From NCBI RefSeq assembly GCF_028622875.1, contig NZ_CP117709.1:1240001-1304000 (forward strand): a stretch of DNA of 64,000 nt. Reading direction: 5' to 3'. Made by a program: the position numbers and the translations under genes. Within the stretch, counting starts at the first letter, position 1. Every line of letters starts with the position of its first letter. The notes below the pieces were generated by a model, which worked only from the letters and a program-made list of their open reading frames with translations, was not told the origin of the DNA and made no database searches. The stretch comes from Streptomyces sp. MMBL 11-1 (GTDB taxonomy: Bacteria; Actinomycetota; Actinomycetes; Streptomycetales; Streptomycetaceae). Shown in pieces: positions 24,886 to 39,630 of the stretch.

Positions 24886-25971
24886 TCAGCCGATCTCGGC
24901 TCCGTACGCGGCCAGCGCCTCCGGTACCGGCTGGAAGAAGGTCGTGCCGCCCGAGGAGCAGTCGCCGCTGCCGCCGGAGGTCAGACCGAGCGCGGTGTCG
25001 TCCGCGAAGAGGGCGCCGCCGCTGTCGCCGGGCTCGGCGCAGACCGTCGTCTGGATGAGGCCGTTGACGATGTCGCCGTTGCCGTAGTTGACCGTGGCGT
25101 CCAGCGCCGTGACCTCACCGTCGTGCACCTGGGTGGTGGAGCCGCTGCGGGTGACCGCCTGGCCGACGGTCGCGTCGCCCGCCCGGGTGATCGCCTGGGT
25201 GGAGCCGTCGTAGAGGTTCACCTCGCTCGGGTGCGCGGTGTCCGAGACGTACTTGACCAGGCCGTAGTCGTTCTCCGGGAAGCTGGAGCCCTCGTTCGCC
25301 CCGATCTCCGGGCCGCCCTGGGTGTCCGACCAGCTGGTGACCGACTCGGTGCAGTGTCCGGCGGTCAGGAAGTACGGCTCGCCGCCCTTGACCACGTTGA
25401 AGCCGAGCGAGCAGCGGGAGCCGGAGCCCCAGATCGCGTCGCCGCCCGCGATCAGCGGCTGGAACTCACCGGCCGTCCTGGTGAGTTCGGCCGTGCCGCC
25501 GAGGCCCTCGACCACGGCCGAGAGCTTCTTCCAGGCCGCGCCGTCGACCGTGCTGTCGGCGGTGACGCGCACCTTGTTGCTGACCGGGTCGACCGCCCAG
25601 GAGGTGCCCGGGATCGTCGCCCGGTCGGTGAGGGTCGCCCGGGCCGACTTCAGATCGGCAAGAGAGTTCTGAACGATTCTGGCCTTGCCGCCCGCCTGAC
25701 GGACCTGCTCGGCGCCCGCCTCGTCGAGGACGTTCACGACGAGGGCCTCGGCCGTGGCGTCGTAGTACGAGCCTGCCGCGTCCGCGCCCAGGTCTCGGTC
25801 CAGGGCGGTGGCCAGTTTTCCGGCCGCGTCCGCGCTGAGGGCCTTGGCCGCGAACGTCGGCACATCGTCACTGGCGTTCGCAGTCTGGAACGTGAATCCC
25901 GCTGCGACGAGGGCGACGACGGCCGAGCCGGCCAGCGTCGCGCGCTTCCTGGATATACGTCGATGCTTCAA
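24886..25971 (-). CDS. Streptogrisin-family secreted serine protease (S1, alpha-lytic type) with a TTG start
   Basis: A 361-residue prepro-protease. The only well-placed ribosome-binding site (AGGAGGT) sits just before a TTG at 25971, giving a classic signal peptide ([18 protein letters not shown] ... TANA). A prodomain of ~115 residues ([20 protein letters not shown] ... [15 protein letters not shown]) is followed by the mature chymotrypsin fold starting near [12 protein letters not shown]. The catalytic triad is visible: TAGHC (His), ENDYG (Asp), AEPGDSGG (Ser). The paralogue streptogrisin B lies 12 kb away. The mature part is closer to streptogrisins than to trypsins; subtype (A, D or other) is uncertain. 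Confidence 0.93.
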
Positions 25972-26409
25972 CTTCGACCTCCTGTGGGGCCGTGTACGGA
26001 GCAAGTGGGGTGCGCGTACACGGAGGATGGGGCGCCCACTATGCCGAGGCGGCGAAACGCGCACAAGGTCGGCTTCCAGACGCGCACATGACATCGACGC
26101 TTCGCACGCGAGGCGTTCACCTGCCCCGGGTCATGCCACGTCGGTTCCGATCGCGAACACCTGGTGCAACCGTGGACGGCCCCTGGGTGAGGACTAGTCC
26201 TGTCCGGTATTCGCCGTTGGTGTCCGGACGGTGGGTCCACCTGTCCGGATGGAGACGGAGATCGTCCGCCGGGGAGCCGTTCCGTACCTTCACAGTTCCT
26301 GTCGCCCAGCAGTCCCGGTAACGCCTCTGATGGGTCATCATCGAAAGGGCAGCACACGCCGGGCACACCGTGTCCGGGCCGGCCGGGTGACCGAGCGGAG
26401 GAGGAACGG
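25972..26409. other. Divergent intergenic region (438 bases)
   Basis: It lies between the protease and the alpha/beta-hydrolase genes, which diverge. I see no gene, hairpin or clear promoter pair; GTCCGG occurs several times between 26198 and 26257 without regular spacing. Confidence 0.5.
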
Positions 26410-27309
26410 GTGCGCAATCGGGTGCTCGCGGCGGACGGGCGGCATCTGATGGTGGAGCGGATGGGGGACCCGCGGGGCAGACCGGTCTTCCTCCTCCACG
26501 GCACTCCGGGCAGCAGACTCGGGCCCGCTCCCCGCTCCATGGTGCTGTACCAGCGCCATACGCAGCTGATCACCTACGACCGCCCGGGATACGGCGGCAG
26601 CGACCGGCACGAGGGCCGCCGGATCAAGGACGTCGTCGAGGACGTGCGGGCCATCGCCGACTCGCTGGGACTGGGACGATTCGCCGTGGTGGGCCGGTCC
26701 GGCGGGGCCCCGCACGCCCTGGCCTGCGCGGCGCTGATGCCGGAACGGATCACCCGGACCGCCGCTCTGGTCAGTCTCGCGCCCCCGGACGCGGCCGGTC
26801 TCGACTGGTTCGACGGGATGACCGCGTCCAATGTGCTCGCGTACTCCACGGCGGCCGACGACCCGAAGAGCCTGGCGGAGTCCTTCATCCTGCGCTCGGC
26901 GCAGATCCGCCGGGACCCGGTCAGGCTCCTGGACGACCTGCGCCGGGAGCTGACCGACTCCGACCGGATGGTGGTCAACGACGCGGGGATCCGCTCCATG
27001 CTGCTGCGCAACTACAGCGAGGGGCTGCGCACCTCGGCGTACGGCTGGATCGACGACGCCATCGCGTTCTGCAGCCCCTGGGGCTTCGATCCCGGCCGGA
27101 TCACCGGCGAGGTGCTCCTCTGGCACGGGGTGAAGGACGTCTTCTCCCCGGTCGGCCACTCCCGCTGGCTGGCCGGGCGGATACCGGGGGCCACCGCCGT
27201 ACTCGAACCGAAGGCGGCCCACTTCGACGCGTTCCCCATGCTCCCCCGCGTCCTCGACTGGCTGCTGGACGAGCGGGAGCACCCGGACGGCCCCGGGCCG
27301 GGAGGGTGA
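26410..27309 (+). CDS. Alpha/beta-fold hydrolase
   Basis: A 299-residue cytoplasmic protein with the alpha/beta-hydrolase pattern: oxyanion-hole motif PVFLLHGTPGSRLG, TYDRPGYGGSD after strand 4, nucleophile elbow VVGRSGGAPHAL (Ser in GRSGG), acid region LLWHGVKDVFSP, and catalytic His in AAHFDAFP. The start is GTG at 26410 after GAGGAAC. The substrate cannot be predicted. It converges with fxsT (18-base gap), so it is not part of the Fxs operon. Confidence 0.9.
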   Translation: MRNRVLAADGRHLMVERMGDPRGRPVFLLHGTPGSRLGPAPRSMVLYQRHTQLITYDRPGYGGSDRHEGRRIKDVVEDVRAIADSLGLGRFAVVGRSGGAPHALACAALMPERITRTAALVSLAPPDAAGLDWFDGMTASNVLAYSTAADDPKSLAESFILRSAQIRRDPVRLLDDLRRELTDSDRMVVNDAGIRSMLLRNYSEGLRTSAYGWIDDAIAFCSPWGFDPGRITGEVLLWHGVKDVFSPVGHSRWLAGRIPGATAVLEPKAAHFDAFPMLPRVLDWLLDEREHPDGPGPGG

Positions 27310-27327: not shown

Positions 27328-30300
27328 TCACACCGACATCGGTTCCAGTTCCCGCCGGAACCGCTCCTCGGTCCGGGCCATACGGGTCAGCGGGTGGTCG
27401 TCGCCGAGCTGACGGGACAGCTCGACGACGATCTCCGCCCGCAACTGCGTCGCCTCGTCCTCGCGCCCCAGGGCATCGAGCGTGACCGCCATGTTCGAGG
27501 TCATGGCCAGGGTCTCCGGATGGTGTGCCCCGAGCGCTTCGCGCACCTGCCCGGACAGCCGCTGCTCGGTCTCCAGCACGATGTCCAGCTTTCCCAGGTC
27601 CGCTGTCGCGCTGGCCAGGTTCATCACACAGAACAGGGTGTTGGGGTGCTCTCGGCCGAACGTGTCCCGCATGGAGGCGACGACCAGCTTCAGCACCCGC
27701 TCCGCCGCTTCCGGCTCCCCGGCCACCGTCAGATAGACGCCGAGGTTGTTCTGCGCCGCCAGGGTGTACGGGTGCTTCTCCCCCGGCACCTTCATGAACT
27801 GGTCGACGACCTCCTGCGCCGTGTCCCGCGCCTCGGCGCTCTCGCCCGCCGCGAACAGGTCCGCGGCGAGGTTGAGGTCGCAGGCCAGCGAATCGGGGTT
27901 GGCGATGGTGTACTTCGCCCGGTAGCGGGCGCGGGTCGCCACCGTGAGACGGCGGGCGTCCTCCAGCCTGCCCGCCCTGCGCAGCGACACCGCGAGGCTC
28001 TTCGCCGCGCTCAGCGTGGTGGGAAAGCTGCGGCCCATCGTCTGCTTGAAGCTGTTGTACGTGGTGCTGAGCAGCCCCACCGAGTCCTCGTACCGTCCGA
28101 CCTCCCGCAGGTCACGGGCGAGGTTCATGGCGGAGGACAGGCTGTAGGGGTGTTCCGGTCCGAGCACCTGGGAGCGGAGGTCGTAGACGTCCTGGTCGAT
28201 CTCCCGGGCGCGGGCGTACTGACCGACGCTGCGCAGGTTCAGGGCCAGGTTGTTGGCGGCGGCCAGGGTCCGGGGGTGGGAGTCGTGGAAGATCTGCCCG
28301 AACCCCTCGTGGGCCTCGGTCGCCATCTCGATCGCCCGGGCGTAGTCCCCCAGCAGACCGAGGTCGATGGCCAGACTGCTGGTGGTCATGTACGTGTGCG
28401 GGTGCTCGGGTCCCAGCACCGCCCGCTGCCGCTCCAGGGTGAACTCGTCCAGCTCCTTCGCCTCCACGTAACGCCCGCGGGTGCGCAGGATGTTGGAGAG
28501 GTGGAAGCAGAGGTAGAGGTACTGCAGGTCCCGCTCCCCCAGTTTCTCCTCCCAGATCTCCCGCAGCTCGTCGCCGAGCGCCCCCGCGGTCCTGACGTCG
28601 CCGCGCTTCCAGAGGTAGCGGACCCGGTCGATCAGGAGCCTGCGGGTCTCCGGCTCCTTGCAGTTGCGGGCGTCGGAGGGGCCGAGGTGCGGCCAGATCG
28701 TCGCGAAGCGCGGCCAGGTCTCCGGGTTGTCGATCGGCTCGTCGTCGTCGGGCCGGGCGCCGGCCAGGATGCGGTGGACGACGTGCCGGGCCTCGCGCTG
28801 CTCCTCCTCGCTGAGCTGCGCCTTGATCACGGCCTGGACGAGGCGGTGGACCTGGATGGAGTTGGAGACCTGGTCGACCTTGGCGAGGGCGAACCGGCCG
28901 ATCTCCCGGATGACCCGGCCCAGCACCAGCTTCTCCTGCAGCGAGGAGTCGTACGGCTTCAGCGCGTCGATCATCTCCTTGCTGTAGAGGAGGTTCGCGG
29001 AGATCGGTTCCGGGGCGAAGAACGCGCAGAGCTGGAGCAGCCGCACGGCGGCGGGCGAGCGCTCCTTGAGCCGGGCGATGGAGATGTTCCAGGTCGCGGC
29101 GACCGGTTCCGGGTAGCCGGCCGGCTGGTTGAGCCCGAGGACCTGGGGAGCCTGCTGGGCGAGCTGTTCGAGATAGGTGTCGATGGGGGTGGCGGTCTCC
29201 GCGATCCAGGCGGCAGCCTGCTCCACCGCCAGCGGCAGGTCGCCGACGGCGGTCGCCACCTGGTCGGCGTCCTCGTCGCTGAGCCCCGGCGCCCGGCGCT
29301 GGAGGTGCTCGATCGACTCCTCGCGCAGGAAGACGTCCACGGGCAGCGCGTCCCCGTGCTGGGACCAGCTCTGGTTGCGGGAGGTCACCAGGATGTGGCC
29401 GGAGCCGCCCTGCGGGAAGTAGCGGCGCAGCTGCTCGGGGTCGTCCGCGTTGTCGAAGACCAGCAGCCAGCGGTCCGAGGGCACGCCGCGCCGCAGCAGG
29501 TCGACGGCCTCCTGGGAGGCGGCGGCCATGTCGTCGCCGCCCTGGGCGCCGAGCCGGACGGCGAGCTCGGCGAGCGAGGCGACCACGTCGTCGGGCTGCT
29601 CGGACGATATCCACCACACCAGGTCGTAGTCGGCCATGAAGCGGTGCACGTACTCCAGGGCCACCTGGGTCTTGCCGACGCCGCCGAGTCCGTACAGGGT
29701 CTGCGGCTGCGGCAGGACGACGGCCAGGCCGCCGCCGAGCTGGTCGCGCATCCGCTCCAGGACGAGCGAGCGGCCGGTGAAGCCGGGGTTGCGGGGCGGC
29801 GCGTTCCAGATCCTCGGTACGGTGCCGGGGAAGCGGGGCCCGGGCGAGACCCCGTCCGCCACCTGCACCGGGCGGTCCAGGGCCCGCATCACGGCGGTGG
29901 TGGCGTGCACCTCGTCCAGCCGGAAGAGGTCGACGGGGTTGCGGTCGATGTAGGGGGCGCTCAGGCGTACGTCCCCGACCCGCAGGGGGACCAGCCGGCG
30001 GCGGCCGCTGCCGACGGCCTCCGCGGCGGTCCGCTCCCAGAGCTCGACCGCGCGCTGGGACTTCAGGTAGGCGCTGGAGAGCAGCACCACGGTGCGGGCG
30101 GTGTTCTCCGCGGGAGTCTCGCCGGCCTCCTCGGGAGGACGTTCGGCGGAGACGTCGCGCGGAACCACCCGGAAGCCGGCCCGGGTGAGAATCGATTCGA
30201 GCCAGTCGGCCCACATCCGGTTCTCCGCCACATAGCTGAGGAAGAGATCGGCGGGCAGGGAGGGCCTGCGCCGGGTGAAGGCGTCGCGGATCCGCAGGCG

Positions 30301-31263
30301 GACCTCCTCGCCGATCGGGGGCATCGAGGTGATCTCCCGGTCGGTGATGACCGCGACGAGCCGTTCGAAGGCGGAGAGCAGGGAGTTGGACAGCCCGGCC
30401 TCGTCACCGAAGGTGGCGAGCGTCTCCTCGTAGGCGTAGTAGGGGCGGTAGGGGATCTCCACCGCGCCCCAGTAGGCGGTGAGTTCGTCCCCGGACAGGT
30501 CGCGCGGCAGCCGGTCGAACTTGAGCCGGGCCAGCGCCCGCCCGGCGTCCGCCTTCTCCTTCTCGCCCTCGTCGATGCGCATCGGAACGGGGTAGAGGGC
30601 GATGGGCCGGCCGGTGTTGCGCTCGGCGATCTGGCGGGCGACGGAGGCCGCGCCGTCGATGGACTGGTCGCTGAGGGTGAAGCAGTCGACGAGCACGTCC
30701 GGGAGGTGGACGGTGCAGATGTCGGCGATGTCGCTGAGGCCGGTCCGGCTGTCGATGAGGACGTAGTCGTAGTTGGCCTTCATGTCGTCGCGCAGCGCGT
30801 CGAAGAAGTGGCCGCCGCCGAACCGGTCGTAGAAGTTGTCCCAGTCGAAGGTGGAGACGGTCGCGGAGTATTCGCGGTTCTGCCGTCCGGCGGAGACGAA
30901 GTCGAGCGTGCCGCCCTGCGGGAACTCCCAGCCGAGCGACTCGGGGGTCAGCGACACGGCGTGCGGCTGGATGCGGGCGTAGTCGCGGTGCCAGTCCTCG
31001 GGGCGCTGGGCGGGGCTGGTCGCGGCCCAGGCGTACTCGGTGATCAGGTCGATCACGCCGGTGGTGGCGCCGAGGGTGGCCGGGTCGAGGAAGGGGTGGA
31101 AGAACCGGTGCAGCCCGGGGGCCTCCAGGTCCCAGTCGACGGCCAGCACCCGCTTGCCGTTGGCCGCGAGGATCCAGGCGGTGTTGGCGAGCGCCATGGT
31201 GCGCCCGGTACCGCCCTTGTACGAGTAGAAGGTGACGATGCGCCCGTCACGACCGGCACTCAT
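27328..31263 (-). CDS. fxsT: FxsT: KGG-type P-loop / TIR / NB-ARC / TPR protein of the Fxs system
   Basis: A 1311-residue STAND-type protein. In order: a ParA/MinD-like P-loop domain with KGGTGRT at 16-22 and VDWDLEAPGL; a TIR-like domain (~338-465; DLFLSYVAENRMWADWL, VVLLSSAYLKSQRAVELWER); an NB-ARC NTPase with P-loop GLGGVGKT at 525-532, LVFDNADDPEQL (Walker B) and VTSRNQSW; and about ten tetratricopeptide repeats (~900-1300; units such as GPEHPHTYMTTSSLAIDLGLLG). This matches the FxSxx-COOH-system TPR protein. The ATG start overlaps the fxsC stop (ATGA). It is the last gene of fxsA-fxsBH-fxsC-fxsT. The biochemical role is unknown; the architecture suggests a sensor or signalling NTPase. 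Confidence 0.93.
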   Translation of the reverse strand: MSAGRDGRIVTFYSYKGGTGRTMALANTAWILAANGKRVLAVDWDLEAPGLHRFFHPFLDPATLGATTGVIDLITEYAWAATSPAQRPEDWHRDYARIQPHAVSLTPESLGWEFPQGGTLDFVSAGRQNREYSATVSTFDWDNFYDRFGGGHFFDALRDDMKANYDYVLIDSRTGLSDIADICTVHLPDVLVDCFTLSDQSIDGAASVARQIAERNTGRPIALYPVPMRIDEGEKEKADAGRALARLKFDRLPRDLSGDELTAYWGAVEIPYRPYYAYEETLATFGDEAGLSNSLLSAFERLVAVITDREITSMPPIGEEVRLRIRDAFTRRRPSLPADLFLSYVAENRMWADWLESILTRAGFRVVPRDVSAERPPEEAGETPAENTARTVVLLSSAYLKSQRAVELWERTAAEAVGSGRRRLVPLRVGDVRLSAPYIDRNPVDLFRLDEVHATTAVMRALDRPVQVADGVSPGPRFPGTVPRIWNAPPRNPGFTGRSLVLERMRDQLGGGLAVVLPQPQTLYGLGGVGKTQVALEYVHRFMADYDLVWWISSEQPDDVVASLAELAVRLGAQGGDDMAAASQEAVDLLRRGVPSDRWLLVFDNADDPEQLRRYFPQGGSGHILVTSRNQSWSQHGDALPVDVFLREESIEHLQRRAPGLSDEDADQVATAVGDLPLAVEQAAAWIAETATPIDTYLEQLAQQAPQVLGLNQPAGYPEPVAATWNISIARLKERSPAAVRLLQLCAFFAPEPISANLLYSKEMIDALKPYDSSLQEKLVLGRVIREIGRFALAKVDQVSNSIQVHRLVQAVIKAQLSEEEQREARHVVHRILAGARPDDDEPIDNPETWPRFATIWPHLGPSDARNCKEPETRRLLIDRVRYLWKRGDVRTAGALGDELREIWEEKLGERDLQYLYLCFHLSNILRTRGRYVEAKELDEFTLERQRAVLGPEHPHTYMTTSSLAIDLGLLGDYARAIEMATEAHEGFGQIFHDSHPRTLAAANNLALNLRSVGQYARAREIDQDVYDLRSQVLGPEHPYSLSSAMNLARDLREVGRYEDSVGLLSTTYNSFKQTMGRSFPTTLSAAKSLAVSLRRAGRLEDARRLTVATRARYRAKYTIANPDSLACDLNLAADLFAAGESAEARDTAQEVVDQFMKVPGEKHPYTLAAQNNLGVYLTVAGEPEAAERVLKLVVASMRDTFGREHPNTLFCVMNLASATADLGKLDIVLETEQRLSGQVREALGAHHPETLAMTSNMAVTLDALGREDEATQLRAEIVVELSRQLGDDHPLTRMARTEERFRRELEPMSV

Positions 31264-32600
31264 AGGTCCTCCGCTTCCGTCGCAGGGTCGTGCGGGTCGG
31301 GGATGTAGCTCGTACCGCCCATGGGACCGGTGAGCCGGGTCCGCTCGCCGGAGCCGCCGCCCGGTCCGGGAGGGTAGGCCTTCGCGTGCTTGAGGTACTG
31401 CTGGGCGGCCACCTCGACCACCTGGGGCAGGAGTTGGCCGAACGCCTCCATGGTGGGCACTCCTTTCGCCGCGGCACGGCACAGGGCCCGGCCCTGGCCC
31501 ATCTTGACCGGCATGGTCGCTTCGAGTCTCTCGGTGAGCTCGGCCTCCGCCGCTCGGCTCTGGTGGTCGTCGCGGCTCCACGGCACGACCATGGTGACCC
31601 AGGGCCGGTTCTCCGCGTCGAAGGCGGCGAGCCTGCGGCGGTGGTCCTCGTCCATGAGGGCCCAGCGGTCGACGAGCAGGATCTCGGGGGTGCTGGGCGG
31701 GGCCTTGGCGTCGTGCCGGTCCTCGTCGAACGAGGTAATGACGGCCTGGTAGTTGAGCGAGCGGACCAGTTCCTCCGCCACATAGGCCAGGGGGCGGGCG
31801 GCGGCCGGGTAGTAGGGGTTCCAGTCCTGGGGGTGGTCGCCGTAGTGGTCGCTGTTGCGTCCCTCGGGCAGATCGTGGCGGGTGGGCGCCGCGATGGTGA
31901 TCTGCATCGGCCGGGGAGCGCCGACTCCGCTGCTGGGGGAGCCGAAGGCGCTGGGGGCGAGGCGGTAGTCGACGGGCCGGCCGGTGTCGATGCGGACCGA
32001 GTCGGCGACGCTCACGATGCGTTTGGCCAGTTCGTAGACGGCCCGTTCGTATTCTTCGGCGAAGAGTCTGAGCTTGATCAGGCCGTAGAGGCCGTCGCTG
32101 ACGTAGCGTTCCCCGAAGTCACGGTGGTTGAACTGCAACCGCTCGGCGGAGCCGGGGAGTTGGCTCGGCGGCACCGGTACCCAGAGCGCCGGGACGATGG
32201 CCTCGGCGGGCTGGTTGGAGCGGGCGCGGTGGTGGATGGCGCGCTGTTCGAAGGCGTACCACTCCTTGCCGCACATCTCACTGGCGAAGTAGCGCGGCGA
32301 GAACAGCGGGACGAACACCCGGCAGGTGGCGAGGACGTCGCCGAGCCGCTCGGACCAGCCCTCCCCGGAACGTATCTCCCGGTCCATGAAGCCCGCAGGC
32401 GCGCCCGCGGGTAAGTCGGTCATGGCCATCACATGGCCGCAGAGGTCCTGGAAGAGCCGTTCGACCCACATATCGGGGTCCGTGCCGCCGCCGTACCCCG
32501 GCGTGTGGGCGTAACTGAGAAAGAAATACGGCCGATGGCCCACCGCTCGCTGTTGCGTCGATGCGTGCACACGACCCCCGTCCTGTGTGAGCACTCGCAT
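31260..32600 (-). CDS. fxsC: FxsC: TIR-like protein of the Fxs system
   Basis: A 446-residue protein. The N-terminal ~200 residues are TIR-like (HRPYFFLSYAHTPG, GWSERLGDVLATCRVFVPLF, SPRYFASEMCGKEWYAFEQR), the family I know as TIR-like FxsC. The C-terminal half holds a second alpha/beta domain (AEELVRSLNYQAVITSF ... EILLVDRWALMDEDHRRRLA) and a proline/glycine-rich tail. No membrane segment. It overlaps fxsT by four bases and lies 74 bases after fxsBH. Glu residues in SEMCGKEW occupy the area of TIR NADase catalytic glutamates, but enzymatic activity is unproven. Start at the ATG at 32600; a weak ribosome-binding site leaves some doubt. Confidence 0.9.
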   Translation of the reverse strand: MRVLTQDGGRVHASTQQRAVGHRPYFFLSYAHTPGYGGGTDPDMWVERLFQDLCGHVMAMTDLPAGAPAGFMDREIRSGEGWSERLGDVLATCRVFVPLFSPRYFASEMCGKEWYAFEQRAIHHRARSNQPAEAIVPALWVPVPPSQLPGSAERLQFNHRDFGERYVSDGLYGLIKLRLFAEEYERAVYELAKRIVSVADSVRIDTGRPVDYRLAPSAFGSPSSGVGAPRPMQITIAAPTRHDLPEGRNSDHYGDHPQDWNPYYPAAARPLAYVAEELVRSLNYQAVITSFDEDRHDAKAPPSTPEILLVDRWALMDEDHRRRLAAFDAENRPWVTMVVPWSRDDHQSRAAEAELTERLEATMPVKMGQGRALCRAAAKGVPTMEAFGQLLPQVVEVAAQQYLKHAKAYPPGPGGGSGERTRLTGPMGGTSYIPDPHDPATEAEDL

Positions 32601-32674
32601 CCCGGAAGGAGGAAGGGAGTGGAAGCGAACTCATCATTCCGGAGCGGACCGCTTTCCACCCCCCTGCCGTTCGG

Positions 32675-35020
32675 TCATTCGCACGGCACTTTCTGGTCAG
32701 ATGCCAGGATGTTCGGCGCCTGACCGGACGACGGGAAGCTCCTGCCGCGATTCTTCTCGGTCGCACTCCGTGTTCCGCTGATCTCCTTGCGCACAGCGGA
32801 GATCAGCTGTTTTCCGTCGACCGTCACCTCCGCCGCGTTTTCGATCTTGTCGAGAGCTTCCGGAACACCCGTGAGGAAGCGCGGGTCGTAAAGCCCGAGC
32901 CCCGCCCGTTCGAATGTCTCGGCCAGCAGTCGGGAGAACGTCACGTGTTCGTTCCCCCAAGGCGTCCGATGTTCCCAGGTACCGTCCAAGGCGTAAAGAT
33001 CCGCCACTTCACCGAGCGCCCGCAGTTTCGCCCGGCGGAATCCGCTGAGCAGGCCGAGTGCCAGCTCGTTCGCCTCCGCCGACGGCCCGACGCCGAGCGC
33101 GCCGGGCCCGTGGCGCCCCGGCTCGGCGTCACCACAGGACAGCGGGGTCAGCGTGGTGAGCGTCCGGGCCGCCTCGGCCGCCTGACCGGGTACGGCGTCG
33201 GCCAGCAGCGACCAGGCTGCGCCGACCCGGTACGCCCAGGCGTCGGCGTCCTCCACTGCCAGGCGGTCGGTCGCGGGTGCGTCGAAGCAGTCGCGGAGGG
33301 GGTCGAGGTCGTCCAGCAGGAGTACGGGGGCGGGTTCCCGGCGCAGGACGTGCACGGGCAGCCAGTGCGGGCCCTCGGGCTCATCGGGTGCGATGCGCAG
33401 CTCCGTGCCGGGCGTGTCCTGCGGGCGGCGGACGAGGAATCCGTCGCCCGTGGCGCGCACCACGGCCGTTCCCCGCTCCCCCGGGCCGCCGAGGAGCACG
33501 GTGCCGAGGGTGGGCAGATACAGGCTTCCGTCACGGTAGGCCACGGGCACGGACAGGTCGTCGCGTCCGGCGCGGACGGCTGCGGCGGCCACGGTGGCGC
33601 CGAGCCGTTCGGAGGCGGGCCCCGTCATGCCGCGGCCCGCCTCGACGTCCTCCAGGGCGCCGATCAGCCAGGTGCGGGTGTAGGGGTGCGCGAGCACTCT
33701 GTCGAGCGCGTCGGCGCCCGGGGGGTCGGCCTCCAGCGTCGCCGCGAGCCGCCAGGCGTCGTCCCAGAGAGCCCCGCCCCGCCCGTCGAGGGTGTCGTGG
33801 AGGGCCGCGAGCAGGGTCCGGGTCAGGTCCTGATGGGCGGCGAGCAGTTCGTCCGGCGCCCGGACGGCGGGCGACTCGGTGGCCGCGGCCGTGCGCTCCT
33901 CGATGCCGCGGATCAGGGCGGCCAGGTCGGCGCAGTAGACCGACGGGTTGTCGAAGCCGCTGTCGCCGCCCTCGGGGCCGCTGCCGGAGCGGTACCGGTG
34001 GGTGTAGAGCCCGCCGCCGCAGGAGCGCACGACGGGGCAGCGGCGGCAGGTCTCGCTGACCCCGGCCAGACCGAGCTGCCGCGCCTGGACGCCGGGGTGG
34101 GCCGCGACCTCGTCGAAGGTGTTGCGGAAGACGTCGAACCCGGTGGCGGCGGCGCCCTCGTAGGCGCTCTTGAGCGAGTCGACCTGTTCCAGCTGTCCGT
34201 CGGTCTCGATGACGACGAGGTCGGTGGGGGCCAGGCCGAGGGACTCGGTGAGGCTGGGGCCGCCGTTCAGGCTGGAGAGCACCGAGGCGAACAGACGGAC
34301 GGGCATGGGGCGGCCCTGTTCCGTCCAGCGGTCGAAGACCGTCAGGAGCCAGTCGGCGTACGCGGTGGGCGATCCGTCCGGCCGCGGGGGCGGGTCGTCC
34401 CAGGTGGCGTGCGGCAGCAGGAAGTCGACGAGCGGGGGTTCGAGTCCGGCGAGAGCGTCCTGCACGGCCACCGGGTCGTTGTGGATGTCGACCGTGCACA
34501 GCAGACCGAGGTCCAGGTGGCGGTAGCGCTCCTCGCGGAGCAGTTCGACGGCTCGCAGCACCATCGGGTGGCTGCTGCGTCCATCGGCGAATCGGCGGTG
34601 GCGGTCGTTGGCCGCGCGGTCGCCGTCGAGCGAGATCCCGACCCGGACGTGGAACTCGTCGAAGAGGTCGAGGTAGCGGGGGCTGAGCTGGACGCCGTTG
34701 GTGTGGATCCTGAGGTCCAGCTCAGCGATGCCGTTCAGGGCCGAGCCGAGCTCCTCGCAGACCCGTCGCAGTCGCGCGGGTCCCGCCAGGAGCGGTTCCC
34801 CACCGTGCAGGATCACTGTCACGGAGGGAAGCGCATGCGCCGTCGCATGCTCGGCCAGACGCCGGGCTGTCCAGGAAATTGCCTCGTCGGAGATGGTCTT
34901 GGGGCGTGTCAGCCAGCTCTGATCGGCATGTTCGTAGACATAACAATGATCACAGGCCAGATCGCACCTGCTGTGCACTTTCAGCACGAATTCACGGAAG
35001 GGGACCAGGGGTCCTGTCAT
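32675..35020 (-). CDS. fxsB: FxsBH: radical SAM/SPASM peptide maturase fused to an inactivated beta-hydroxylase domain
   Basis: A 781-residue protein. Residues 1-370 are radical SAM plus SPASM: CxxxCxxC at C19/C23/C26 (CDLACDHC), GGEP (73-76), and SPASM cysteines C325, C328, C334 and C363. FxsB-type enzymes form a cyclophane crosslink in a three-residue aromatic-x-x motif of the FxsA peptide (established for FXS maturases). The C-terminal ~400 residues resemble the aKG/HExxH-type peptide beta-hydroxylases, but the motif that should be HExxH reads SGFRR at 659-663 in an otherwise recognisable AKLRALGEVADLY context, so this half is probably catalytically dead. It follows fxsA by 30 bases. Confidence 0.94.
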   Translation of the reverse strand: MTGPLVPFREFVLKVHSRCDLACDHCYVYEHADQSWLTRPKTISDEAISWTARRLAEHATAHALPSVTVILHGGEPLLAGPARLRRVCEELGSALNGIAELDLRIHTNGVQLSPRYLDLFDEFHVRVGISLDGDRAANDRHRRFADGRSSHPMVLRAVELLREERYRHLDLGLLCTVDIHNDPVAVQDALAGLEPPLVDFLLPHATWDDPPPRPDGSPTAYADWLLTVFDRWTEQGRPMPVRLFASVLSSLNGGPSLTESLGLAPTDLVVIETDGQLEQVDSLKSAYEGAAATGFDVFRNTFDEVAAHPGVQARQLGLAGVSETCRRCPVVRSCGGGLYTHRYRSGSGPEGGDSGFDNPSVYCADLAALIRGIEERTAAATESPAVRAPDELLAAHQDLTRTLLAALHDTLDGRGGALWDDAWRLAATLEADPPGADALDRVLAHPYTRTWLIGALEDVEAGRGMTGPASERLGATVAAAAVRAGRDDLSVPVAYRDGSLYLPTLGTVLLGGPGERGTAVVRATGDGFLVRRPQDTPGTELRIAPDEPEGPHWLPVHVLRREPAPVLLLDDLDPLRDCFDAPATDRLAVEDADAWAYRVGAAWSLLADAVPGQAAEAARTLTTLTPLSCGDAEPGRHGPGALGVGPSAEANELALGLLSGFRRAKLRALGEVADLYALDGTWEHRTPWGNEHVTFSRLLAETFERAGLGLYDPRFLTGVPEALDKIENAAEVTVDGKQLISAVRKEISGTRSATEKNRGRSFPSSGQAPNILASDQKVPCE

Positions 35021-35050
35021 CCCGTCATTCTAGCCGCTTACGACGTGGAC

Positions 35051-35215
35051 TCAGAGAGCCGAATTGAACGTGGAGATCCGGGTGGACCTGGCCGTTGTCG
35101 CACCGCATACGCGGTTGATCTTCCTGGCGGCCTCGGCGCTGCGGACGTCGGTCGCCGAGAGGGTCGCGCGGGTCTTCGCAGAGGCGAAGGAGGGGGTGGT
35201 TCCGTAGGTCTTCAC
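35051..35215 (-). CDS. fxsA: FxsA: FxSxx-COOH precursor peptide
   Basis: A 54-residue peptide ending ISTFNSAL: Phe50-Asn51-Ser52 followed by two residues and the stop, exactly the FxSxx-COOH signature. The leader has a helix-like segment (LSATDVRSAEAARKINRV), one Cys (C37), and a second FxS (Phe10-Ala-Ser12) near the N-terminus. I chose the GTG at 35215 because AGGA sits 6 bases before it. An in-frame ATG at 35257 would give 68 residues but lacks a good ribosome-binding site. It is first in the fxs operon, 30 bases before fxsBH, and is the presumed substrate of that radical SAM enzyme, giving a Phe-to-Ser cyclophane. Confidence 0.85.
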   Translation of the reverse strand: MKTYGTTPSFASAKTRATLSATDVRSAEAARKINRVCGATTARSTRISTFNSAL

Positions 35216-35257
35216 GGCCGTCCTAGGGGGATCCTGAAGGGGTCTGTTTCCGGACAT

Positions 35258-36009
35258 TGAAATGCTGCCGGATTCCGCGTCATCACACGTCCCGGCACGC
35301 GCACTTTACTACCGCGGAGGCTCTTCCACATGCCGGCGGAGCGGCCTTCACACCTGGATACGAAACTCGAAACACACCTTCCGCTCGGCCGCTCGGGTGA
35401 GCGGGGGACGAGCGGCGGAACCGGTGGGCCCGGCGGCCGGCCCCGCTGCCGCCGGCACGCGCAGGTGAGAGGCTTTCCGCCACCGGCGAGACCGCTCGCA
35501 CAGGTGCCGGGCGCGCGCGCCGCGCGGGTCCCGGACGACGGGCGCCGGGCGGCTCCGGCAGGACGGCGGTTCACCCGTTCACCAGCTTCTCGCCAGGGAG
35601 GCCGTGTTCCGCACGGAGGACGCGCACGCGGTCCGGTAAGGGGTTCGCCGGCCCACGGCGCCCGTGATCCGCGCCCGGGCGCGGTGCCGCGACCCGCTCG
35701 GCGCACCGCCGCGGGAGCACATCCACGGCCCCGGTCACCCTCGATGGCCCCTCCCCGCGCGGAGGTGGTCGCGCCCACCGCGGAGGGGGCGGCAACTCAC
35801 GTGTCGACGAACACAGTTGGACTACCTTGCCACAGCGCCGCGAGGTGAGGAAGGACACCCGCGCCGAAGTGGCCGAACCCTTTCGTGGCGACCGTCCGAG
35901 GAGCCGGGACGCTCTTGCCGCGTCCGGCCCTCCCCCCTACTCTCGTGGCCCGGGCGGGCCAGGCGCCACGACCGGCCGGGTCATACGACAACTGCAGACG
36001 GAGGCGTCC
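35258..36009. other. Large divergent intergenic region (752 bases) between fxsA and the SLATT gene
   Basis: Open frames exist on both strands but none shows a recognisable protein or ribosome-binding site. It must hold the fxs promoter (minus) and the SLATT gene promoter (plus). A TA-rich spot at 35303-35311 could be a -10 region on the minus strand, without a clear -35. Confidence 0.5.
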
Positions 36010-36936
36010 ATGACGGCGTTGCCTGAGCCGCTGAGATCCATGGTCTTCAGGAACGATGACCTGCCGGCGCTGTTCCACCACACGGACGCGGTCGCCGTGG
36101 CCCGCCAGCGTGAGGCCGTGAACACCACCCGTACGCAGCTCGCGCTGCTCGTGGCGGGCACGGTGCCCGCTGCGCTGCCCTGGCACCCCGAGGACGGTCC
36201 GGCGGCCCGTGCCCTGTACGGCGCCGCCGTGCTGGCCTATCTGGGCGTGCTCTTCGCGACCTTCCTCGCCTCCCACCGCAAAGCAAAGTCGCACTGGCAA
36301 CTGAACCGCTCGGCCGCCGAGTTCATCAAGTCCAACTGCTGGCGCTACGCGGTCCACGGCGCACCCTTCGACAGCGCGTCCGAGCACCCGGAGGCGCTGT
36401 TCGCCAATCGCCTGGAGGACGGCCTCCAGGAACTGCGGAAAGTGGGCTGGGCCGATCCGCGCGAGGAACTGCCGGATTCCGGCGGCCTCATCACGGATTC
36501 CATGCGCGCGTTACGGAACAAGGCCTACACCGTGCGCAAGGAGACGTATGTACGGGACCGGCTCATCGAGCAGCGGCGCTGGTACCGCAGGCGTCAGGCG
36601 GCTTCCCGGCGCGGGGCGCTCCTGTGGTCGGGCGCCATCGTCGCGCTGACGCTGCCGGCGCTGGCGCTGAGCGTGCTCCAGGTCTTCGGGGTGGCGCGCT
36701 CGTTCGGCCTGACGGGGGCGTTCTCCGCGGCTGCGGCGGCCTGTCTCGCCTGGAACGAGATGCGCCGGCACCATCCGCTGATCTCGGCGCACTCGCTGGT
36801 GGAGAAGGATCTGGAGTCGATGCAGGCCGCCATGGAGACCACCCTCACCGAGCGGCACTGGCCGGCGGCGGTCTTCGAGACCGAGCGGATCGTGTCGCCC
36901 GAGCACACCGACTGGCTCGTCAGACATCGCGTGTGA
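36010..36936 (+). CDS. SLATT/DUF4231-type membrane protein
   Basis: A 308-residue protein with four predicted membrane helices in two pairs (~43-57 and ~67-88; ~205-225 and ~232-248). Each pair is followed by a SLATT-like helix: SAAEFIKSNCWRYAVHGAPF after the first, and LVEKDLESMQAAMETTLTER ... RIVSPEHTDWLVRHR (the DUF4231 ending) after the second. This suggests two SLATT units (SLATT_3 then SLATT_1). SLATT proteins are predicted pore-forming or membrane effectors of nucleotide-sensing conflict systems. GGAGG five bases before the ATG at 36010 fixes the start. A SLOG-like gene lies convergently 66 bases beyond. Confidence 0.8.
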   Translation: MTALPEPLRSMVFRNDDLPALFHHTDAVAVARQREAVNTTRTQLALLVAGTVPAALPWHPEDGPAARALYGAAVLAYLGVLFATFLASHRKAKSHWQLNRSAAEFIKSNCWRYAVHGAPFDSASEHPEALFANRLEDGLQELRKVGWADPREELPDSGGLITDSMRALRNKAYTVRKETYVRDRLIEQRRWYRRRQAASRRGALLWSGAIVALTLPALALSVLQVFGVARSFGLTGAFSAAAAACLAWNEMRRHHPLISAHSLVEKDLESMQAAMETTLTERHWPAAVFETERIVSPEHTDWLVRHRV

Positions 36937-37002: not shown

Positions 37003-37482
37003 TCAGCCGCGCAGGATCCCGTCCCGCCAGATCACGGTGACCGGGCGGCCCAGGGCGCGGGCGTACGTCACGATGTCGCCCGTGCCGCCGAGGCCGCGGG
37101 CCGGGAGGCCGTCCCAGACCGCGAGCAGCCGGTCGCAGTGGTCGGCGATGTAGGCGCCCGCCGCGTAGTACGCCTCGTCGGTGGAGTGCGGGAAGTCGAG
37201 CCGGACCTCCCGCACCGCGCGCGCCTTGAGCGCCCGGTAGCGGGAGAGGTCGACGGCGTTCTCGAAACAGGCCTCGTAGTCGCCGCTGGGGATGACGGCG
37301 GTCAGTTCGGCGCCGCGGGCGAGGGCGAGGCCGGCGAAGAGCTGGTCGGCGCCGACCGCCAGACTGGAGAGCACCTGCGCCGTGCCGTCGAGGCCGCACA
37401 GCGCGGCCCTCAGACCCGCGAGCACATGCGCCTCGGCCTCGGCGGGGATGGAGCGGTGACCGGTCACTCCGATGCGATTCAC
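37003..37482 (-). CDS. SLOG-family (nucleotide-binding Rossmann-like) protein
   Basis: A 159-residue single-domain protein. It begins RIGVTGHRSIP and has SSLAVGADQLFAGLALARGAELTAVIP, then DRLLAVWDGLPARGLGGTGDIVTYARALGRPVTVIW. The GxxGHR opening and the D-x-W-DG-x-PA-x-G-x-GGT signature are typical of SLOG proteins, which bind or process nucleotide-derived ligands. Start is GTG at 37482. It is convergent with the SLATT-type membrane gene, a partner with which SLOG domains are often linked. The actual ligand is unknown. Confidence 0.8.
   Translation of the reverse strand: MNRIGVTGHRSIPAEAEAHVLAGLRAALCGLDGTAQVLSSLAVGADQLFAGLALARGAELTAVIPSGDYEACFENAVDLSRYRALKARAVREVRLDFPHSTDEAYYAAGAYIADHCDRLLAVWDGLPARGLGGTGDIVTYARALGRPVTVIWRDGILRG

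Positions 37483-37679: not shown

Positions 37680-39630
<1,951 letters not shown>

Follow-up and report, generated by a model that had tools for sequence, protein, structure and literature searches.

SLATT and SLOG genes as near-constant partners of an Fxs peptide-maturation lineage in Streptomyces

Background

Why does the gene for a ribosomally synthesized and post-translationally modified peptide (RiPP) lie beside genes for TIR and STAND proteins? The question is raised by an Fxs locus of Streptomyces sp. MMBL 11-1, which was analyzed within a 64-kb stretch of DNA, hereafter the window (assembly GCF_028622875.1, contig NZ_CP117709.1, positions 1,240,001–1,304,000; coordinates below follow the window numbering). 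The 8.5-Mb genome (G000) encodes a single FxsB above the family cut-off, and fxsB is common, being present above that cut-off in 180 of the 295 genomes of the genus that were searched. A preliminary description presented fxsA, fxsBH, fxsC and fxsT as a complete four-gene system. Comparison of gene neighborhoods led us to reject that view: genes for a SLATT protein and a SLOG-fold protein are near-constant partners of the window's fxs lineage, a gene for an alpha/beta hydrolase is a frequent partner, and all three lie outside the range that had been described. The Fxs system itself is known; the strongly linked SLOG-SLATT pair, a putative output module, is the new part, and its link to fxs makes the opening question a testable mechanism.

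Linkage to fxs loci

The comparison was based on 100 loci of at most 20 kb, drawn from the FxsB matches listed with preference for the long FxsBH form, and the window brought the set to 101; fxsB itself was found at E 1e-60 in 183 of 295 genus genomes. SLATT homologues were present in 55 of these loci and SLOG homologues in 53. Clustering of the encoded proteins returned FxsB in 100 loci, FxsT in 95, FxsC in 89, the alpha/beta hydrolase in 77, SLOG and SLATT in 53 each, and an AAC(3)-like protein in 43. With the window SLATT protein as the query, matches at E 1e-10 were detected in 99 of 291 genus genomes. Among the 87 matches of at least 220 bits, 82 lay within 10 kb of a listed FxsB match (67 within 4 kb and 15 at 8–10 kb). 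One of the other five has a piece of fxsB at the contig edge (L134) and another is on a 5.6-kb contig (L135); the remaining three are considered below, together with the alternatives. At least 101 SLATT relatives were confirmed in named genomes, and the best 80 of them were compared: fxsB was present in 76 of these 80 loci (62 of the 64 full-length ones) and SLOG in all 80, and because the query alignment was built from fxs-linked SLATT proteins, these figures describe a subfamily that seldom occurs apart from fxs and do not give a frequency for SLATT proteins in general.

The association is not a matter of synteny alone. In one clade (L086, L097, L104, L107, L109), the SLATT-SLOG pair lies beyond fxsT and the hydrolase gene, on the other side of the cluster. 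SLATT also accompanies short forms of FxsB (L121, L126, L129, L137, L138), and its presence requires at least eight changes on the FxsB tree. In a representative of another family (L155), SLATT and SLOG homologues (148 and 131 bits, respectively) lie beside fxsT, fxsC and fxsB, and the sequence FNSSI, an end of the FxSxx type, can be read upstream of fxsB. A class-wide search detected SLATT matches in 21 of 394 genomes, 8 of them outside the genus; at one of these loci (L161), SLATT adjoins an FxsT-like KGG-TIR gene and a TIR gene, with no fxsB. Grouped by shared flanking gene clusters, the 55 SLATT loci fall into four groups, of 41, 12, 1 and 1 loci. Distance correlations between SLATT or SLOG and the Fxs proteins were 0.72–0.86 over 50 loci, values that shared ancestry alone would also give.

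Ten weaker SLATT loci (131–173 bits, with L147 split in two; one further weak match, G086:C21, was left out of this set) had no fxs or SLOG match. In L139, L140, L142, L144 and L146, a neighboring protein exceeded the Pfam TIR or ThsB_TIR cut-off, and in L143 a neighboring TIR was recognized by motif only, with none among the 25 Pfam rows shown. No TIR neighbor was seen beside SLATT in L141, L145, L147 and L148.

Some further observations concern SLATT neighborhoods without fxs. WD40-TIR proteins adjoin SLATT near the middle of L140, L142, L144 and L146, forming a TIR-SLATT neighborhood that recurs in the genus. In L161:6648-15338, the KGG-TIR, TIR and SLATT genes are on one strand and the start of a nearby gene reads, by eye, as vWA-like; this is a conflict-type locus of a different kind, with no fxsB. 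SLATT-SLOG pairs without fxs occupy L132:9378-10758, L133:10134-11565 and L136:9053-10564; genes of L132 and L133 resemble the flank genes of the window, as if fxs had been lost there.

SLATT and SLOG proteins

The SLATT protein of the window matches Pfam families SLATT_3 and SLATT_1 (122.9 and 115.4 bits, cut-offs 26.3 each) and scores 181.1 bits (cut-off 45) and 94.8 bits (cut-off 41) in NCBIfam. It has two hydropathy peaks above 1.4 and is probably a membrane effector. The SLOG protein was recognized by its fold because sequence profiles gave no match, whether in NCBIfam, in a Pfam scan of a 147-aa piece, or in a profile search of its alignment against PDB sequences. Its predicted structure (predicted local distance difference test score, pLDDT, 91.3) matched YpsA (E 2.5e-7), DprA (~1e-5), ShosA (2.7e-5) and TM1055 (4.7e-4) in Foldseek, followed by the SLOG domain of ThsA with 3' cyclic ADP-ribose (E 5.3e-3) and a LOG protein with AMP. 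On this modeled structure, the product of 37003..37482 probably has the SLOG (SMF/DprA-LOG) fold and is a probable nucleotide sensor. Motifs of the GADQLFA-, VWDGxPARG- and GGT-type are kept over 15 aligned relatives.

TIR and P-loop residues of FxsC and FxsT

The glutamate of the SxWCxxE motif in plant TIR domains is catalytic. In profile comparisons, the glutamate of the CGKE sequence of FxsC (Glu113) was aligned with this residue of plant TIR domains such as Roq1, in weak matches (best E 0.008), and the structure of RUN1 E100A with nicotinamide adenine dinucleotide (NAD) was among the fold matches of FxsC. Among 89 aligned FxsC proteins, this position is E in 81 and Q in eight, and it is E in all 53 aligned proteins from SLATT loci (for two SLATT loci the set includes no FxsC). 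Each of the eight Q loci (L084, L090, L093, L098, L110, L111, L112, L131) has a second FxsC-like gene carrying C-G-x-E, and therefore at least one TIR with the glutamate kept is encoded in each of the 89 loci.

In FxsT, the catalytic position of the TIR is occupied by V, L, A, I or T in 95 of 96 aligned proteins and by a gap in one, and FxsT, with no catalytic glutamate in any of the 96, was rejected as the NADase. The lysine of its NB-ARC P-loop is kept in 96 of 96 proteins; in the KGG P-loop, arginine replaces lysine in 88 of 96. Because the TIR of FxsT itself lacks the catalytic glutamate, FxsC is the probable NADase of the system.

The FxsA peptide and the FxsBH maturase

All four proteins of the fxs run exceed their NCBIfam cut-offs, which bears out the family identity given in the preliminary description. 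FxsA, with the C-terminus FNSAL, scores 33.2 bits against TIGR04268 (cut-off 28). FxsBH reaches 602.8 bits against TIGR04269 (FxsB; cut-off 370) and 515 bits against NF040587, the 'inactivated beta-hydroxylase extension form' (cut-off 225). FxsC matches NF040588 (238 bits, cut-off 130) and TIGR04276 (258 bits, cut-off 55) in its N- and C-terminal domains, and FxsT matches NF040586 (1049.2 bits, cut-off 300) and the KGGVGR model NF047398 (150.2 bits, cut-off 90). To judge from these scores, the matches are far above chance. Pfam detected TIR_2 in FxsC (37.0 bits, cut-off 28) and in FxsT, together with NB-ARC, DUF7779 and TPR in FxsT, in agreement with the earlier recognition of two TIR-type proteins, one of them a STAND NTPase. 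Small open reading frames (ORFs) with FxSxx ends were seen upstream of fxsB in most related loci.

The hydroxylation that the name FxsBH suggests is not expected here, for the HExxH site is lost. FxsBH has LGLLSGFRRAKLRA at the position where active relatives carry LLLVHEFQHVKLGA, and it scores 30.9 bits against TIGR04267, the model of the active alpha-ketoglutarate (aKG)-HExxH hydroxylase, below the cut-off of 40. Judging by these residues, the hydroxylase half is dead, and radical SAM chemistry only, that is, a cyclophane (-2 Da) with no +16 Da, is therefore expected. The product on FNSAL is presumably a three-residue cyclophane joining Phe to Ser. The HExxH-less form is not new, having already been named in NCBIfam.

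In a tree built from the radical SAM domains of 122 FxsB proteins, the window falls in a supported clade of 62 rows, within which a loose HExxH pattern matches L058 alone. This is a chance match near the C-terminus, and L058 was rejected as HExxH-intact; because the loose pattern wrongly flagged it, HExxH counts were made with the stricter pattern HExxHxKL. Among the long-FxsBH loci of the genus sample, SLATT is present in 52 of 68 without HExxH versus none of 17 with it. However, L155 has HExxH and SLATT together, and a tree-aware test had 5 independent pairs only, hardly any of them differing; given both, we do not claim a causal tie between loss of HExxH and SLATT. A separate observation concerns the residue after the Phe of FxSxx, which is Q in 14 of 15 readable HExxH-intact loci (e.g., L032, L044, L084) and N, S or D in 52 of 61 readable loci without HExxH. 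This residue may mark the substrate of hydroxylation, or it may merely follow the clade.

Comparison with known systems

The locus corresponds to the Fxs system of NCBIfam in having all four genes, each over its cut-off, in tandem, and differs in the conserved neighbors, as the model names include no SLATT, SLOG or hydrolase. In the available text of Kaur et al. 2020 (PMC7159879), FxSxx peptide-processing systems are described, including standalone actinobacterial ones that combine an AP-ATPase with an inactive MinD/ParA-like domain; a role in conflict is predicted, with the FxSxx peptide as a toxin or a signal. FxsT agrees with that description, being an AP-ATPase (NB-ARC) protein with TIR, TPR and a variant MinD-like P-loop. 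The core of their systems, however, is a zincin-like HExxH metallopeptidase, a motif that is lost in the FxsBH of the window and kept in some relatives, and SLATT is tied in that text to GAP1 systems, with neither SLATT nor SLOG tied to FxSxx systems. Full-text literature searches, whose reach did not extend to supplements and most subscription papers, found no link of Fxs with SLATT or SLOG, and no experiment on the physiological role of Fxs was found in the searchable literature.

In Thoeris, as described in the accessible part of PMC11204291, a TIR enzyme makes a nucleotide to which a SLOG domain or a transmembrane (TM) effector responds. The fxs locus shares this TIR-nucleotide-effector logic, and the predicted SLOG structure is weakly like that of ThsA (E 5.3e-3). 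It differs in having a separate SLOG and SLATT, plus a peptide and a STAND protein, instead of a SIR2-SLOG or TM-macro ThsA; Pfam found no SIR2 or macro domain among the 12 proteins scanned. As a candidate ThsB, FxsC has a TIR with the glutamate and no PADLOC match at E 0.01. That SLATT proteins are membrane effectors responding to nucleotides has been predicted in the literature (PMC7159879, PMC9503650, both in the text available). TIR-SLATT pairs of firmicute phages (PMC9503650) likewise link TIR to SLATT, predicted to be a membrane effector regulated by a derivative of ADP-ribose, but the accessible text does not speak of a peptide, a radical SAM enzyme, a STAND protein or SLOG. PADLOC matched FxsT to two candidate-system models (PDC-M28B; 77.8 and 43.2 bits), FxsBH to pVip (30.1 bits) and SLATT to PDC-M09A (14.1 bits), and gave no match for FxsA, FxsC, SLOG or the hydrolase.

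Proposed mechanism and alternatives

The gene content suggests the following chain. FxsA would be cross-linked in its C-terminal FNSAL by the radical SAM half of FxsBH, and the modified peptide would most likely act inside the cell on the STAND protein FxsT, either as its ligand or as its guard; we favor an intracellular role because an exporter is absent from the most conserved partner genes (none was seen among the six gene clusters shared by half or more of the 101 loci). Switching of FxsT would lead to assembly and activation of FxsC, which would turn NAD into ADP-ribose or a cyclic isomer of it. Sensing or gating of this product by the SLOG protein would follow, and the SLATT protein would change membrane permeability, resulting in cell death or dormancy. 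This whole chain, from peptide control of FxsT and FxsC to a SLOG-SLATT membrane response, seems to us possible, at somewhat less than an even chance. The regulated conflict or cell-fate switch suggested earlier thus finds support for its direction in the FxsC glutamate, the NB-ARC P-loop of FxsT and the linked SLOG and SLATT genes, and the role itself is offered here as a proposal. A broader reading, to be taken as a whole and rather doubtful, is that Fxs is a pathway like that of nucleotide-binding leucine-rich repeat (NLR) receptors, in which a ribosomal cyclophane peptide either permits or holds back the action of a STAND-TIR receptor, a partner TIR enzyme makes the NAD-derived messenger and SLOG-SLATT permeabilizes the membrane, and that Fxs lineages can exchange their outputs, with a different one in those lineages of the genus that keep HExxH intact. 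If true, such a peptide-controlled TIR pathway would be a bacterial counterpart of receptor-gated immune signaling.

Several findings weigh against the proposed chain. The predicted structure of FxsC is of moderate quality (pLDDT 76.3), and its matches in Foldseek are weak, the best at E 1.0e-3. Nor is the module universal, since 33 of 85 long-FxsBH loci, including all 17 HExxH-intact ones, lack SLATT; in the rearranged clade, L087 has a SLATT fragment only and SLOG was not found, and two full-length loci from named genomes (L203, L244) lack fxsB. Evidence from outside the genus comes from two of the eight SLATT matches there (L155, L161). In addition, the SLATT and SLOG genes form a convergent pair outside the fxs operon; L132, L133 and L136 carry both without fxs genes; inheritance explains part of the linkage, as 41 of 55 SLATT loci are joined by shared flanks; and an ABC-transporter ATPase cluster about 8 kb away in 22 of 101 loci makes export possible.

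The separate transcription units, the three fxs-less loci and the large shared-flank groups would suit an independent SLATT-SLOG module that shares its site with fxs by inheritance and stands outside the fxs mechanism. We regard this as very unlikely in view of the 82 of 87 strong SLATT matches near a listed fxsB, the persistence of the link after rearrangement, alongside short forms of fxsB and in a second family (L155), and the TIR genes that adjoin weaker SLATT genes too. Such fxs-less TIR-SLATT neighbors, as well as the lack of an exporter among the most conserved clusters, also speak against a secreted RiPP, either an antibiotic or a signal, with FxsC and FxsT controlling its production and SLATT and SLOG protecting the producer or aiding release. 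This explanation is improbable, even though the ABC ATPase cluster could serve it, a membrane protein gene adjoins the precursor gene, and other cyclophane-type RiPPs, darobactin among them, are antibiotics according to the available text of PMC9055067.

A developmental cell-fate switch, in which the same parts would time hyphal lysis or sporulation and serve no defense, is unlikely to a lesser degree. Unlike quickly exchanged defense islands, many loci have chromosomal neighbors in common (the flank group of 41 loci), and the AGTAAAGT box upstream of fxsA is identical in 15 of 15 aligned close relatives, the window counted. The distribution, however, is patchy (fxsB in 183 of 295 and SLATT in 99 of 291 genomes) while development is genus-wide, and the domains are those of conflict systems.

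Gene calls and other neighbors

The features of the locus are listed in Table 1. The ORF list supports the earlier reading of the four fxs genes as one minus-strand run (27328-35257), with spacings of 30 and 74 bases followed by an ATGA overlap of fxsC and fxsT. The mechanically called fxsT ORF is 27328-31581 (-), with its upstream end at 31581; the most likely start is the ATG at 31263, which overlaps the fxsC stop as ATGA. A shorter start of fxsC, giving 427 aa, is possible. The SLATT gene is divergent from fxsA, with 752 bp and no called gene between them in the window.

Table 1. Positions of the fxs genes, their partner genes and sites of note in the window
Feature	Position	Strand	Description and evidence
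fxsA	35051..35257	-	68-aa precursor peptide, end STFNSAL (FxSxx-COOH); TIGR04268
fxsBH	32675..35020	-	781-aa radical SAM/SPASM maturase, inactivated HExxH extension; TIGR04269, NF040587
Lost HExxH site in FxsBH	33032..33046	-	Residues 659-663, SGFRR; HEFQH in active relatives
fxsC	31260..32600	-	446-aa TIR-like protein with C-terminal FxsC domain; NF040588, TIGR04276, Pfam TIR_2
FxsC Glu113	32262..32264	-	Aligned with the TIR NADase glutamate
fxsT	27328..31263	-	1311-aa KGG P-loop/TIR/NB-ARC/TPR protein; NF040586, NF047398, Pfam
SLATT_3 + SLATT_1 protein	36010..36936	+	308 aa, probable membrane effector; Pfam, NCBIfam, hydropathy, linkage
SLOG-fold protein	37003..37482	-	159 aa, GTG start, convergent with SLATT; predicted structure and linkage
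Alpha/beta hydrolase	26410..27309	+	Convergent with fxsT; Abhydrolase_1, 61.1 bits, cut-off 25.8
AGTAAAGT box	35303..35310	-	Upstream of fxsA; alignment of close relatives
Candidate SLATT promoter	35915..35943	+	TTGCCG-17-TACTCT; spotted by eye

A TTGAGAGGATG-like box lies upstream of SLOG, and a candidate promoter was spotted upstream of SLATT in the window (Table 1); in the promoter alignment, an extended gene start shifted the SLATT upstream rows of L034 and L043 out of place. Of the 101 fxs loci, 43 have an AAC(3)-like acyltransferase gene nearby (e.g., L047:11576-12349), usually between fxsB and fxsC, and none was seen in the window. The one such protein that was scanned scored 141 bits against the AAC_3 cut-off of 270, so it may not act in resistance. 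Ten of the 101 loci have, upstream of fxsB, a gene whose product of about 223 aa begins with a hydrophobic segment; it lies between SLATT and fxsA in L035 (gene 8). Genes for serine proteases of the alpha-lytic type flank the window's cluster, one on each side (24886-26094 and 37680-38642), and relatives of these genes are found near 39 of the 101 fxs loci.

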